Positions 13,826-19,833 of a stretch of 64,000 nt of DNA are shown here, one piece after another. How positions within the stretch are numbered: position 1 is the stretch's first letter; each line of letters opens with the position of its first letter. This stretch comes from Paracrocinitomix mangrovi (GTDB lineage Bacteria > Bacteroidota > Bacteroidia > Flavobacteriales_D > Crocinitomicaceae). A program made the position numbers and the translations under genes. The notes under the pieces are model-generated. The model made no database searches and was not told the origin of the DNA. It saw only the letters and a program-made list of their open reading frames with translations. Location of the stretch: assembly GCF_019740355.2 (NCBI RefSeq), contig NZ_CP091819.1:1860001-1924000 (forward strand), read 5' to 3'.

Positions 13826-15427
13826 CTAAGAAGCTTCAGGAATCAATTTTGCTTGTTCTACCAGTTGTAGAAACTCAACTTTTTGTAAATCATCAATTTT
13901 TACAATCTCTTTTAACATATCACTTACATCATCCATATCAAAATCATTGATGTATTGTGACTCTCTTAATATCAATGAGAAACCGGCAACAGCAACAGAA
14001 AACTTGAAAGATTCAGAATTCTCTTCCCATTGTAGACCTTTATCTTTAACTGGCATTTCAATTAATTTACTCTTGCTCCCTTTTGGTTTTTTATATCTCA
14101 ATTTCACCCACACCAATTCATCTGATTTACTTGATTGCGACTGTTGATACTTCAAGTTTGATTTATCAGCTTTTCCTGGAACTATCTCATAAATCGCAGT
14201 AACTGTGTGACCCGCTCCCAATTCACCTGCATCTTTCTTGTCATTGTCAAAATCTTCATTGTTCATTACGCGATTTTCATAACCAATCAATCTGTATTCT
14301 TTTACTAAATCAGGGTTAAATTCTACCTGGATTTTCACGTCTTTAGCAATCGTCAGTAAGGTACCAGCCAAATTAGTCACCAACACTCTATTGCTTTCTC
14401 TGATATCATCAATGTAGAAATAGTTTCCATTTCCATGGTCCGCTAAACTTTCCATTTTCGAATCTTTGTAGTTACCCATTCCAAATCCTAAAATGGTTAA
14501 GAAAACACCTTGATCTCTTTTCTCTTCAATTAATCTTGTAAGCTCACCATCAGAAGATCTACCAATATTAAAATCACCATCAGTAGCCAAAATCACTCTG
14601 TTATTTCCATCTTCCAACAAGTTGTCTACTGCAATTTCATACGCTTTTTCGATTCCACCAGCACCATTTGTTGATCCGCCTGAAGTTAAATTGTCAATTG
14701 CCTCTTTAATTTCATCCTTGTGTTCGCATGAAGTAGACTCTAATACAACTCGCTCATCACCGGCATAAGTAACAATTGAAACTCTGTCTTTTGCATTTAA
14801 TTTATCCACTAATAATTTGTATGATTTTTTAAGTAGTGGCAATTTGTTGTGATCTTCCATTGAACCCGAAACGTCAATTAAAAAAACCAAATTTGAAGGA
14901 GGCAGATCTTCAACATCTACAGTATATCCTTTTAGCCCGATATGCACCAATCTATTTTTTTTATTCCAAGGACAATCTCCCACCTCAGTATAAACTGAAA
15001 ATGTTTCATCTTTTGTAGGAACCGGATAATCATAATCAAAATAATTTATAAACTCTTCTGTTCTAACGGCATCAACAGGTGGTTTAACTCCATCTTCTAT
15101 AAATCTTCTAACATTTGTATAGCTGGCATTGTCTACATCAATAGAAAAAGTAGAAAGCGGATTGGATCCAGGAGATAAAAATTCATTTTCAGGCATGTAA
15201 GCATACTCTTCGGTATTAAATTCTATCTGTGCAATATCATCTTCCATCATCATATCCATGTCGTAATTTTCAACTATTTCTCCTGCTTCCTCTTCAGTAT
15301 AAGCTACCTTGTTATAGTTTTCAGATTGACCTAGATCTTCATATGACGAACCTTCGCCACCTCCACATGCAGTTAGTTGAACAATCATTGTAGCAACTGC
15401 TGCTATTTTAAGATTTCGTGTTTTCAT
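13826..15427 (-). CDS. VWA-domain (YfbK-like) lipoprotein
   Basis: A lipoprotein signal (MKTRNLKIAAVATMIVQLTAC, acylated Cys21) is followed by an acidic segment (residues 28-66), then a conserved domain starting SPGSNPLSTFSIDVDNASYT typical of YfbK-type proteins. The von Willebrand factor A domain begins near residue 178. Its metal site is complete: DVSGSM (Asp185, Ser187, Ser189), Thr253 in GGSTNG, and ATDGD (Asp283). The C-terminal DUF3520-like part ends with VAGFSLILRESQYINDFD. It should sit on the periplasmic face or outer membrane and bind a partner protein. It is divergent from a sigma factor, and its acidic segment resembles one in the protease next to that sigma factor. Confidence 0.9.
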   Translation of the reverse strand: MKTRNLKIAAVATMIVQLTACGGGEGSSYEDLGQSENYNKVAYTEEEAGEIVENYDMDMMMEDDIAQIEFNTEEYAYMPENEFLSPGSNPLSTFSIDVDNASYTNVRRFIEDGVKPPVDAVRTEEFINYFDYDYPVPTKDETFSVYTEVGDCPWNKKNRLVHIGLKGYTVDVEDLPPSNLVFLIDVSGSMEDHNKLPLLKKSYKLLVDKLNAKDRVSIVTYAGDERVVLESTSCEHKDEIKEAIDNLTSGGSTNGAGGIEKAYEIAVDNLLEDGNNRVILATDGDFNIGRSSDGELTRLIEEKRDQGVFLTILGFGMGNYKDSKMESLADHGNGNYFYIDDIRESNRVLVTNLAGTLLTIAKDVKIQVEFNPDLVKEYRLIGYENRVMNNEDFDNDKKDAGELGAGHTVTAIYEIVPGKADKSNLKYQQSQSSKSDELVWVKLRYKKPKGSKSKLIEMPVKDKGLQWEENSESFKFSVAVAGFSLILRESQYINDFDMDDVSDMLKEIVKIDDLQKVEFLQLVEQAKLIPEAS

Positions 15428-15475
15428 AGTTTCAATTTTTTAGATTTCGTTTTTATTGATGTATCCTTTGAAAAT

Positions 15476-15525
15476 TTAAAAGGTCACCCATGTTTTATTT
15501 TTTTTTATTTTGGGTGACCTTTTAA
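15476..15525. promoter_or_regulatory. Perfect 15-bp inverted repeat between divergent VWA and sigma genes
   Basis: TTAAAAGGTCACCCA (15476-15490) and TGGGTGACCTTTTAA (15511-15525) are perfect inverted copies separated by 20 bases that are almost all A/T. It lies 48 bases upstream of the VWA start and 26 bases upstream of the sigma start. It could be an operator for a dimeric regulator or a leader hairpin in both transcripts. It is not a classic terminator because the only T-run is part of the stem. Confidence 0.7.
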
Positions 15526-15551
15526 CCATTATCAGGATATACAATTAGACA

Positions 15552-16097
15552 GTGCAAATTGATCAGGAAATACCGTCAGAATTAGTCAAGAAAATAAGAC
15601 AAATGGACGACCTAATTTTAAGAGCTGTCTACAAAGAGGTTTATCCAATGGTAGAGAAGTATGTGATTAAGAACAATGGTTCATCTGATGATGCAAAAGA
15701 TGTTTTTCAGGATGCCATTTATCTACTTATTAAAAAAGCAGGACAAGAAGGCTTTGAGCTAACGTCCAAACTCAGCACTTTTTTATTTGGAATTGGTAAA
15801 AATTTGTGGCTTAAAAAGCTTACAAAAAATAAAATAGACCCCAAAAGTTATGAAGCTGAAATAGAGGACAACAATTTGCCGGAGGAAGATTTTACGCAAT
15901 TAGAAAGAAAGAAGAAAGTAAAAGAGTGTATTGAAGCTTTGGGTGAGCCTTGCAAAACAATTATTGTTCAGTTTTACTACTTTAAAACAAGCATGCAAGA
16001 AATTGCAAAAATGCTCAATTATACAAATGCCAATAACGCTAAAAACCAAAAGTACAAGTGTTTTTTGAGGCTTAAAAAAATGATGTTAAAAGGATAG
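15552..16097 (+). CDS. RNA polymerase sigma factor, sigma-70/ECF-like
   Basis: 181-residue sigma factor. A region 2-like part includes AVYKEVYPMVEKYVIKNNGS and DAKDVFQDAIYLLIKKA (about 25-75). A region 4-like helix-turn-helix is at about 118-180 (CIEALGEPCKTIIVQFYYF, MQEIAKMLNYTNANNAKNQK). The start is GTG, and no better ATG precedes the conserved region. Six bases after its stop begins the membrane protease gene, the usual position of an anti-sigma factor. The ECF subgroup cannot be assigned from sequence reading alone. Confidence 0.88.
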   Translation: MQIDQEIPSELVKKIRQMDDLILRAVYKEVYPMVEKYVIKNNGSSDDAKDVFQDAIYLLIKKAGQEGFELTSKLSTFLFGIGKNLWLKKLTKNKIDPKSYEAEIEDNNLPEEDFTQLERKKKVKECIEALGEPCKTIIVQFYYFKTSMQEIAKMLNYTNANNAKNQKYKCFLRLKKMMLKG

Positions 16098-16102
16098 AGA
16101 TT

Positions 16103-17215
16103 TTGAACGAAGAGGAAAAAATAGCATTGTTTGACGCTTATTTGAATGGAGACTTAAATCAAGAGCAGGCATCAGATTTTGAAAAACTGATTGCTAATGA
16201 TATTGATTTGTCTGCTGAATTTGAAGAGCATAAAAAATTAGCTCAAGACATATTTGAAGGACATGAATATGCTGAGATTCTGCATAAACTAGACATTATT
16301 CACAATGATGAAATTGGCAAGAAAAAAAATAATGTCTTACTCAAACCTAAATTCTTAATTCCATTAGGAATCGCTGCCAGTATTATATTCATTGTAATGG
16401 TTGTAAATCCATTTGGAAATACCAGTAATGAAGATTTAGCAAAGTCTGAAGACTATCGTCCACTTTACAATGAAGAAGAGGGCGAATCTGCCTATACTGA
16501 GGAAGAAGCTGAGTTGGTTGAAGTTTACGATACAGTTGAAGAAAATGCAACAGAACTTGATAGCATTGATGACAAACCAAATAAACTTGATGAAGATTTG
16601 AGTTTAATAAGAAAATTACCAAAAGGAAGTGCATTTTTAATTTCAAATGGAGGCTATTTTCTAACATCAAAGCACCTAGTAGAAAAAAGTGAGCTTGTCA
16701 AACTTCAACAAAAAGATTTAGGCATCACATTTAATGCTGAAGTTGTATATGTCGATTCAGTAATTGATTTCGCCATCTTAAAATGTTCAGAAAAATACGC
16801 GACTAATCTAGAAGCTGTTCCATTTAAAATAAGCTCCAAATCAATTGAATTAGGGGAAGATGTTTTCACTTTAGGATATCCTAAATCAGACATTGTTTAC
16901 ACCAAAGGAACCATTAGTTCAGAAACCGGATATAAGTCAGATTCCTTGACCTACGAACTAAGCATGGCTTCAAATCCGGGAAATAGCGGAGCACCACTTT
17001 TTAATACAAAGGGAAATTTTGTTGGAATGATAATCGCCAATAATTCTAAAAAACAATCTGTGACATATATTTTACGACCTGAATACATTGAAGAGCGCTT
17101 GGATAACTTAAAGGATTCTATTGACATTGACATGAGCAGAAACTATACTAAACGCTACAGTCAGGTAAAACAATTCATTTCAAAGTACCGCAATTTTGTG
17201 TTTGAAATTCATTGA
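16103..17215 (+). CDS. Membrane-anchored trypsin-like serine protease in the anti-sigma position
   Basis: Residues 1-80 are an acidic, cytoplasmic, anti-sigma-like region (MNEEEKIALFDAYLNGDLNQ resembles N-termini of Bacteroidota anti-sigma factors). Residues 84-101 are a transmembrane helix. Residues 104-160 are an acidic linker. From about 172 there is a trypsin/DegP-like protease domain with a plausible triad: His191 (LTSKHLV), Asp222 (VIDFAIL) and Ser295 (NPGNSGAP). No PDZ domain is present. The start is TTG. Known systems use a separate protease to cut the anti-sigma factor, whereas here sensor tether and protease look fused. Whether the N-terminus binds the neighbouring sigma factor is inferred. 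Confidence 0.82.
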   Translation: MNEEEKIALFDAYLNGDLNQEQASDFEKLIANDIDLSAEFEEHKKLAQDIFEGHEYAEILHKLDIIHNDEIGKKKNNVLLKPKFLIPLGIAASIIFIVMVVNPFGNTSNEDLAKSEDYRPLYNEEEGESAYTEEEAELVEVYDTVEENATELDSIDDKPNKLDEDLSLIRKLPKGSAFLISNGGYFLTSKHLVEKSELVKLQQKDLGITFNAEVVYVDSVIDFAILKCSEKYATNLEAVPFKISSKSIELGEDVFTLGYPKSDIVYTKGTISSETGYKSDSLTYELSMASNPGNSGAPLFNTKGNFVGMIIANNSKKQSVTYILRPEYIEERLDNLKDSIDIDMSRNYTKRYSQVKQFISKYRNFVFEIH

Positions 17216-17301: not shown

Positions 17302-19833
17302 ATGCGTCTACGCACACTCATAATCCTGGTATTGCTGATTTGTTCAAAAACCCAATTTGCACAAAGCTTACAGGGATTTGTATATGATGAAAGCAACAAC
17401 CCAATTCCCTTTGCAAAAGTCTACGTTAAAAACTTCAACAATTTAGGAGCAGTTACAGACACTGAAGGAAAATACTTCTTTGGTTGTGATATGGGAACTT
17501 ATGATGTCATCTATAAATGTGTTGGATTTGAAGATCAAGAAGTAAAAGTAACCATAGACAAAGTTCAACCAACAGTACAGAACGTTTGGCTAAAACAAAA
17601 GGACAATGAATTAAACACTGTTGAAGTTGAAACTAAAAAGAGAAATGTTGGGTGGGAAATTGTTCAAAACGTTATTTCACATAAAAAAGATTTGATCAAA
17701 CAATTTGATTCATACAATTGTGAAGTATACATCAAAGGAGTTGAAACTTACGAAACAAGACAAGAACAAAAGAATCAAAATCAAGATGAAACTGATGAAG
17801 AGCCCAATGATAAATTTCAAAAACAAAAAGACGAAATCAACAACAAGCTGAATGGTGAAAATCGTCTTAACCTCGTTGAAATAAATCTTGAAAAACACTT
17901 TCAATATCCCAACAAAATAAAGGAAATAAGAAATGGTTATGATAAACTAGGAAGACCGGATCAAATTTATTTTCAAACCACTACAAGCGGAGAATTTAAC
18001 TTCTATGAAAGTTTAATCAGAAAAGATGATTTACACCGCACCCCTATCGTTTCCCCTTTACATCCTGCAGGTATTTTGAACTACAAATACAAACTCAAAG
18101 AAGTAATAGAAATTGAAAACGACACTATTTATAAAGTTGAAATTTCACCAAGAAGTGTTGGAACCTCAACAATGGAGGGATTTTTATGGATATTAAAAAG
18201 TGAATGGGTGCTTACAAAGGTTGATGTGAGCATGCATAAAGGAAACCTCAAAATTTATGACAATTTCAGAATCACACAAGACTATGAAAAAATTGATTCG
18301 TTTTGGGTTGTAAGCAAACAATCCTTTGAATATGACACCAAATACTTTAAAGAAAAAGTTCACGGAATCACCACAGTTTCTTATTCGAATTGGAACTTTA
18401 ACCCTACCTATCCTCCAAAGTTTTTCAACAGCGAAATTGGTGTAACTACCAAAGAAGCTTATGAAAGAGATTCAACTTATTGGGATCAAATAAGACCTGT
18501 ACCGCTAACACCTGAAGAGCAAAGAAAAAAATTCGTTCAGGATAGTTTAACCGCTATTTATACTTCAGAAAAATACCTTGATTCAGTTGATGCTGTTTTC
18601 AATAAAATTACCTGGTTGAAAGCCTTGTGGTTTGGTTTTGAGCACAGAAATAGAGAGAAAAAAGAACAATGGTACATCTCTTCTGTAGCTCAATTAATTG
18701 AACCTATATCGGCAGGTGGACCAAGAATAGGACCGGGATTTCAGTACTTCAAAAAATGGGAAGATGAGCAATGGATTGACGTAGATGGCGATTATTCAAT
18801 TGGCGTCACCAACTGGGATTCAAGAGGTAGATTGAGAATTTATCATAGATATTTACCAAAGAAATTTGGAACCTGGTCCATTTGGGGATCCCGGGAAACA
18901 GACCTCATCAACAGCTGGAATTCATACCTGGGAACATTGAGTAGGAGCAACTGGTACATGAACAATAAGTTTGGAGCATGGCACAGAATTGAAGTTGCCA
19001 ATGGTTTATATGTTGCTACAAGTGCCAGGTTTGAGCACAGAGAACCTTTTGATTCAACTTATAAATTCATCAGTTGGTTTGACAAATGGCTACAACAAGA
19101 AGATCCTGAACCTTACACCTTTAATCCATACAACGCATTCAGAACAAACTTGAGTATTCAGTTTACGCCATTTCAAAAATATATGACTGAACCTAACAGA
19201 AAAGTAGTATTAGGAAGTCGTTGGCCAACCCTCTCATTTTATTGGGAAAAAGGATATCGAAATATTTTAAAATCGGTAGTAGACTTTGACTACATATCCT
19301 TTACGGTTGACCAGGAGTTTAATATTGGAACCATGGGTAAATCCTATTACATAGTCAAATCGGGTAAGTTTGTGAATCAGGATAGTGTCTTTTATATTGA
19401 TAGAAAGTTCTTTAGAAAATCAGATTCGGACCCTTTCTTTAAATATTTCTTAAGTCAACCTTTATACTCATTCCAAAACCTTGATTCATCTTACCAAACT
19501 CAGGATTTTTATTTTGAATTGCATTATATACATCACTTTAACGGAGCACTTATCAATAAAATTCCTTTCATGAAGAAAACAGGAATCCAAGCCTTAGTTG
19601 GAGGAGGTACTTTGTTTTTACCCGAACACAACAACTATTTTTACATGGAGGCATATACGGGAATAGAAAGGACATTTAAATTTATGAGGCGGCGACTGCG
19701 GATAGGTGCCTATGTCATATTTAGTTGGGCCAATAATGCTTTTGCTATACCGGACGATCAGAAGCCTAAAAACGTCCAATTTAAAGTCTCCTTTGACATA
19801 ATGAATGAGCGAGATTTGAAGTTTAACTTCTAA
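17302..19833 (+). CDS. DUF5686-family outer-membrane protein with carboxypeptidase-regulatory-like N-terminus
   Basis: Signal peptide at residues 1-20. Residues about 22-105 form a CarboxypepD-reg-like beta-sandwich (LQGFVYDESNNPIPFAKVYV, VTDTEGKYFF). A Lys/Gln/Asp-rich insertion (150-185) follows, and the long remainder has the DUF5686 pattern, predicted as an outer-membrane beta-barrel ending DIMNERDLKFNF with a terminal aromatic. The function of DUF5686 proteins is not established, and they are common in Bacteroidota. At 843 residues the length is normal for the family. It is transcribed alone, downstream of the sigma/protease pair after a clear gap with its own promoter motif. Confidence 0.85.
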   Translation: MRLRTLIILVLLICSKTQFAQSLQGFVYDESNNPIPFAKVYVKNFNNLGAVTDTEGKYFFGCDMGTYDVIYKCVGFEDQEVKVTIDKVQPTVQNVWLKQKDNELNTVEVETKKRNVGWEIVQNVISHKKDLIKQFDSYNCEVYIKGVETYETRQEQKNQNQDETDEEPNDKFQKQKDEINNKLNGENRLNLVEINLEKHFQYPNKIKEIRNGYDKLGRPDQIYFQTTTSGEFNFYESLIRKDDLHRTPIVSPLHPAGILNYKYKLKEVIEIENDTIYKVEISPRSVGTSTMEGFLWILKSEWVLTKVDVSMHKGNLKIYDNFRITQDYEKIDSFWVVSKQSFEYDTKYFKEKVHGITTVSYSNWNFNPTYPPKFFNSEIGVTTKEAYERDSTYWDQIRPVPLTPEEQRKKFVQDSLTAIYTSEKYLDSVDAVFNKITWLKALWFGFEHRNREKKEQWYISSVAQLIEPISAGGPRIGPGFQYFKKWEDEQWIDVDGDYSIGVTNWDSRGRLRIYHRYLPKKFGTWSIWGSRETDLINSWNSYLGTLSRSNWYMNNKFGAWHRIEVANGLYVATSARFEHREPFDSTYKFISWFDKWLQQEDPEPYTFNPYNAFRTNLSIQFTPFQKYMTEPNRKVVLGSRWPTLSFYWEKGYRNILKSVVDFDYISFTVDQEFNIGTMGKSYYIVKSGKFVNQDSVFYIDRKFFRKSDSDPFFKYFLSQPLYSFQNLDSSYQTQDFYFELHYIHHFNGALINKIPFMKKTGIQALVGGGTLFLPEHNNYFYMEAYTGIERTFKFMRRRLRIGAYVIFSWANNAFAIPDDQKPKNVQFKVSFDIMNERDLKFNF

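Follow-up and report, generated by a model that had tools for sequence, protein, structure and literature searches.

In Paracrocinitomix mangrovi, an ECF sigma factor gene is followed by a gene whose single product, here given the working name ASP, carries a predicted anti-sigma domain, a transmembrane (TM) helix and an HtrA/DegS-type protease domain with an intact catalytic triad. The arrangement recurs in Bacteroidota, and this recurrence suggests a one-protein, apparently undescribed form of the well-known alarm system for cell-envelope stress, in which ASP is probably a protease-bearing anchor that keeps the sigma factor in check.

The locus lies in the 64,000-nucleotide stretch of DNA that was analysed (the window), part of a genome that consists of one contig of 4.37 Mb, and its features are collected in Table 1. 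Both the sigma and the fused reading frame were found in the ORF list where an earlier note, made from the sequence alone, had placed them. In an NCBIfam profile search the sigma factor scored 68.4 bits with TIGR02937 against a cut-off of 42.9, and its assignment as an ECF factor comes from this profile; both Pfam region matches are sub-threshold (Sigma70_r2, 23.8 bits, slightly below the cut-off of 24; r4_2, 16.7 bits, below 25.7).

Table 1. Features of the sigma/ASP locus (window coordinates) and of the second sigma locus of the genome
Feature	Coordinates	Strand	Evidence
YfbK-like VWA lipoprotein	13826..15427	-	PF12450, PF00092, PF12034
GGGTGACC-N15-GGATA, putative ECF promoter facing VWA gene	15462..15489	-	motif search
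Inverted repeat made by both divergent sites (29-nt arms, 79% complementary, 20-nt gap)	15462..15539	.	repeat search
GGGTGACC-N15-GGATA, putative ECF promoter facing sigma gene	15512..15539	+	motif search
ECF sigma factor, 181 aa	15552..16097	+	TIGR02937, E 5.4e-19
ASP, anti-sigma/S1C-type protease fusion, 370 aa	16103..17215	+	domain profiles, predicted fold
ASP residues 1-83, cytoplasmic helical anti-sigma-like domain	16103..16351	+	model m07a215fd0630, Foldseek
ASP residues 84-102, single TM helix	16352..16408	+	hydropathy, sequence
ASP residues 103-172, disordered acidic linker, presumed cleavage site	16409..16618	+	pLDDT, composition
ASP residues 173-341, HtrA/DegS-type trypsin domain	16619..17125	+	Pfam, Foldseek, VIA-align, profile alignment
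ASP residues 342-370, one helix and one strand at the C-terminus (last residues FEIH), where a PDZ would be	17126..17212	+	model secondary structure
DUF5686/CarboxypepD_reg protein, gene 3' of ASP	17302..19833	+	PF18939, 472 bits
Second sigma and 660-aa VWA protein	L221:3315-5827 = G000:C1:2043314-2045826		

Domain architecture of ASP

The order of parts read in the earlier note, a cytoplasmic domain, one TM helix and an external trypsin-like domain, was borne out by Pfam and by an AlphaFold model, with a disordered acidic linker between helix and protease. The model, built from 15 sequences, has a mean pLDDT of 71.4; both ends are confident, and residues 70-158 fall below 50 and are taken as disordered. 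The description of the cytoplasmic domain as acidic is correct, since residues 1-83 hold 20 D/E versus 10 K/R, and the linker holds 23 versus 6. The chain stops 29 residues past the protease domain, the Pfam scan found no PDZ domain in ASP, and F367 in the terminal segment is kept across family alignments.

Trypsin_2 (PF13365) matched residues 175-309 with 79.8 bits against a cut-off of 27.6. The triad His191/Asp222/Ser295 (codons at 16673, 16766 and 16985) is intact, as had been claimed, and in a profile alignment it falls onto the His, Asp and Ser of the Deg2 structure 4fln. These three residues are unchanged in all 11 family rows, and with the GxSG glycines they are invariant in all 40 rows of a wider alignment that spans several families and takes in L148, a distinct 452-residue protein without a sigma gene; given this invariance, the triad match is far beyond chance. 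The best Foldseek match of the ASP model was DegS-deltaPDZ (3lgv_A, E 1.7e-10), with the S1C-NTF2 structure of RsgI9 (7sjy), from an anti-sigma protein, at rank 8. VIA-align gave DegS (2qf0_G) with Z 18.6 and rmsd 2.5 over 164 aligned residues; RsgI9 is not among the 50 VIA matches listed, which excludes nothing. ASP thus has the trypsin fold and the His/Asp/Ser triad of S1C proteases, and full HtrA membership was considered and is not claimed, a PDZ domain being absent.

The first 80 residues were modelled alone (mean pLDDT 74.8) and compared with 350,542 chains. Ranks 1-7 were all class I anti-sigma domains (MucA four times, RskA, then RslA twice; E 1.8-6.2), and such domains make up 10 of the 15 matches listed, with E-values from 1.8 upward. 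By its nearest solved structures the predicted domain is anti-sigma-like; because the E-values are weak, this fold call depends on consistency across the match list. The sole Pfam match of the N-terminal domains was zf-HC2, seen in two of 14 members with an E-value no better than 0.017; PPAR nuclear receptors, the best PDB sequence matches of the N-terminal profile (E 0.0045), were taken as chance. The predicted fold together with the gene order described below supports an anti-sigma role and suggests that the N-terminal domain would hold the sigma factor. A related anti-sigma N-terminus also occurs with a sigma gene in L043 (4289-5566) and L044 (188-1467), where a C-terminal part that looks TPR-like by eye replaces the protease.

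Distribution and gene order

The search for this domain order across Bacteroidota that the earlier note had called for was run, and the fusion recurs. Among 395 sampled genomes of the phylum, 37 matched at 1e-30: P. mangrovi itself, 28 in which the anti-sigma, TM and protease parts are all present (L120-L147), and a further 8 matching over the protease range only, among which L148 was the one inspected. The sigma gene is immediately 5' of ASP in 28/28 of these distant loci. At the level of the order, 24 of 349 genomes matched at 1e-25, and in four loci from other families (L109-L112) sigma is again followed by ASP, the ASP of L112 being broken by unknown bases. In length and charge the linkers are wholly unlike between the clades, those of the distant clade being basic rather than acidic.

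Within the family, 12 of 150 genomes hold a whole or partial ASP ortholog (G000, G026, G104, G070, G059, G042, G004, G020, G008, G023, G096 and G031), that of G096 being truncated at a contig end; the other matches were mostly to the protease range alone, and a few (G070:C24, G002:C80) to the N-terminal part alone. Sigma lies directly upstream in 9 of the 10 fetched ASP loci (L032-L041), that is, in 9/9 having upstream sequence, since in L040 the contig starts only within ASP. Eight of the 10 also carry the divergent VWA gene; L033 and L040 stop short of it. In G031 a remnant is left, the last 127 ASP codons alone, beside queA (L042:3877-4260), and the VWA gene, sigma and the ASP N-terminus have been lost jointly. 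The DUF5686/CarboxypepD_reg gene adjoins ASP in 8 of the 11 fetched family loci (L032-L042). A gene for a DUF4349-type lipoprotein lies within the module, next to the sigma gene, in L033-L035, L037 and L109, the profile match having been checked in L109 alone.

A shared promoter motif

Two divergent promoter-like sites lie between the sigma and VWA genes. The relaxed pattern GGGTKACC-N13..16-GGATA has three matches in the 4.37 Mb genome, two of them at this locus, and a control pattern has none. The third lies 19 nt 5' of the gene at C1:3948789 (L070:4292-4858), whose product has a Cys-rich N-terminus, a TM-like segment and an acidic tail and has no match in Pfam or NCBIfam; this protein is conserved behind the motif in G004, G023 and G026 as well. 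In 11 other genomes there were 19 matches versus 3 for the control, and by reading these fall before sigma (7), the VWA gene (1), the Cys-rich protein (3), small acidic lipoproteins (2, in G008 and G026) and unrelated genes (6). At the level of sequence, the divergent GGGTKACC...GGATA sites suggest a single regulon.

In the distant clade (36 loci: L083-L086, L109-L112 and L120-L147), a -35/-10-like site with a spacing of 15 or 16 stands on the sigma side in 30 of the 36, by a pattern drawn up after the sequences had been viewed, and a simple pattern finds an inverted motif pair in 21.

Lipoproteins opposite the sigma gene

The ASP linker has a counterpart in residues 28-56 of the VWA lipoprotein (SYEDLGQSENYNKV and AYTEEEAGEIVENYD). 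Acidic low-complexity sequence of this kind is hard to score, and the likeness was compared with several controls. Across nine genomes for which both proteins were available, the ASP linker scored a mean of 55.3 with the VWA lipoprotein from the same genome versus 38.3 with those from other genomes, a difference reached in 0 of 20000 permutations, and all nine pairs scored better than shuffled linkers (p<=0.0145). Other acidic segments reached the linker score in 0 of 926 and 0 of 962 cases in two genomes, where the linker pair scored 74 against 57 for the best other segment and, by a thin margin, 52 against 50. The linker likeness is a Crocinitomicaceae feature, since it is missing with the small lipoproteins of the distant clade (30 pairs, 19.8 versus 19.9, p 0.59) and with the tail of the Cys-rich protein (p 0.38-0.71), and is partial with DUF4349 lipoproteins (p<0.03 for three of the five). 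A VWA relative in G003 without a neighbouring sigma gene has a Lys-rich segment in the linker position. The shared motif, the linker likeness and the joint loss in G031 lend support to the link with the VWA lipoprotein that the earlier note had raised.

A second ECF sigma gene in the genome is followed by that of a 660-residue protein with a short N-terminus, a TM-like segment and YfbK/VWA domains, which has full-length relatives in G026, G059 and G070. As judged from its sequence, the VWA domain there is the outer domain of the putative sigma partner.

In 34 of the 36 distant loci the gene opposite sigma encodes a small lipoprotein of 58-113 residues with a repetitive A/T/S/D/K tail; the two loci without one (L132 and L144) belong to the same genus. 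The same pattern was found in 2 of 501 genes of two genomes and in 2 of 83 other genes of the same loci. Of the 34 tails, 19 end in Lys, a residue that accounts for 9.2% of tail positions (binomial 9e-12, without correction for relatedness), and Lpp is attached through its C-terminal Lys. The NCBIfam PG1828 lipoprotein model gave the two members searched 38.4 and 39.5 bits, below its cut-off of 50, and the Lpp/OprI alanine-zipper model matched one member weakly (16.6 bits of 43). An Lpp-like tethering role for these proteins is no more than a lead. In L135, three small lipoprotein-like reading frames lie in tandem upstream of the sigma gene, in the slot opposite to it.

Proposed mechanism and alternatives

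The model that we favour, and to which we give about an even chance, is an envelope sigma pathway with the anti-sigma factor and the site-1 protease on one polypeptide, feeding an RseP-type cascade; the lipoprotein would act in it as a partner, a substrate or a decoy. The model builds on the parts themselves, their conservation, their gene order, the shared motif and the linker likeness. The ECF sigma factor would be tethered at the inner membrane by the N-terminal domain of ASP, with the DegS-like domain, lacking a PDZ, placed in the periplasm on a flexible acidic tether of 70 residues. Envelope trouble would switch the protease on, and it may then cut the tether of another ASP molecule or its own, by analogy with HtrAw; cleavage of ASP itself, of its copies or of the VWA lipoprotein had been suggested in the earlier note. 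Release of sigma would be completed by the RseP-type M50 protease of the genome, a protein of 501 residues with a PDZ encoded at C1:4163336. The freed sigma may fire from both outward GGGTGACC-N15-GGATA sites, giving more sigma and the opposite lipoprotein. Because its segment after the anchor resembles the tether of the same genome, the VWA lipoprotein is proposed to compete for the protease or to dock on it, which would close a feedback loop.

The trypsin domain might instead be a working periplasmic quality-control protease with another target, the anti-sigma part merely reporting and sigma being freed either through a change in conformation or by a different site-1 protease. The triad is kept in 40/40 rows while the linkers differ fully between clades, which would be odd were the linker the main substrate, and the genome holds a second HtrA-type match (C1:1359290). 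Against this, both the fusion and the sigma adjacency are strict, and an HtrA protease would be expected to cut an unstructured tether first; we consider such a division of labour unlikely. More improbable still is that the domain serves chiefly as a ligand-binding sensor with a retained triad, for which the excerpt of PMC12203970 on RsgI9, with its cellulose-binding S1C domain, is a precedent and the fold match to 7sjy an argument: in a pure binding domain, neither the triad nor the glycines of GxSG would need to stay constant.

The linker likeness could also be mechanistically uninformative, a product of gene conversion or of convergence between acidic low-complexity sequences. The segments are indeed short, acidic and of low complexity, their coding stretches are just ~1 kb apart, and the likeness was not found in the other clade. 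Recent conversion is nonetheless disfavoured by synonymous differences, since one linker block in P. mangrovi has 12 of 14 residues identical and just 6 codons identical, and an origin in composition alone is disfavoured by the shuffles and within-genome controls; we regard this explanation as doubtful while taking it seriously.

Relation to known systems and significance

The general plan favoured here is DegS/RseA/RseP logic with two proteins fused. As in sigma-E/RseA/DegS/RseP of E. coli and AlgU/MucA/AlgW of Pseudomonas, there is an ECF sigma factor, a membrane anti-sigma factor with a MucA-like predicted fold, a DegS-type protease domain and an RseP-type M50 protease in the genome. Unlike those systems, ASP joins the anti-sigma factor and the site-1 protease in one chain without a PDZ, and here a lipoprotein gene lies opposite the sigma gene.

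The statement in the earlier note that known systems have a separate site-1 protease is too strong. According to the excerpt of PMC12203970, periplasmic self-cleavage is a property of the RsgI anti-sigma factors of Clostridium thermocellum, among which RsgI9 bears a fused S1C protease-like domain, reported to bind cellulose, with self-cleavage performed by a separate periplasmic domain; RsgI9 therefore precedes ASP as an anti-sigma factor with an S1C domain. By the same excerpt, RsgI proteins differ from ASP in belonging to the SigI family and a Gram-positive envelope, RsgI9 being an individual factor without a sigma pair of its own. No RsgI profile is among the Pfam or NCBIfam matches of ASP and the best profile of its sigma is ECF, not SigI-type, so RsgI membership is not claimed. 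Another parallel is HtrAw of Brevibacillus sp. WF146, an HtrA-like protease which, in the excerpt of PMC5359297, removes its own N-terminal membrane anchor intermolecularly with substrate present; unlike ASP it has a PDZ, and its anchor is not an anti-sigma factor.

The Dma proteins of Bacteroides, according to PMC13088901, are likewise envelope-spanning anti-sigma factors of Bacteroidota paired with ECF sigma factors; they reach the outer membrane, whereas ASP ends in its protease domain, and a similar Phocaeicola anti-sigma factor has a C-terminal beta-barrel (PMC9308784, excerpt). Since the protease is the only extracytoplasmic domain found in ASP by Pfam and the model, Dma membership is not claimed. 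In a literature search of partial coverage, and so as weak evidence, we recognised no description, for Bacteroidota, of a protein that joins an ECF anti-sigma factor to a catalytic trypsin domain.

In one survey, class I anti-sigma domains adjoin just 6% of Bacteroidetes ECF sigma factors (PMC7406223, excerpt). To the question of how the others are controlled, the ASP loci contribute a candidate set with profile-poor anti-sigma domains, a built-in protease and few testable partners. If self-cleavage is true, ASP would be a DegS-RseA fusion with which signalling might be reconstituted from one gene, and a function would be in view for the small repeat lipoproteins and the YfbK/VWA proteins.
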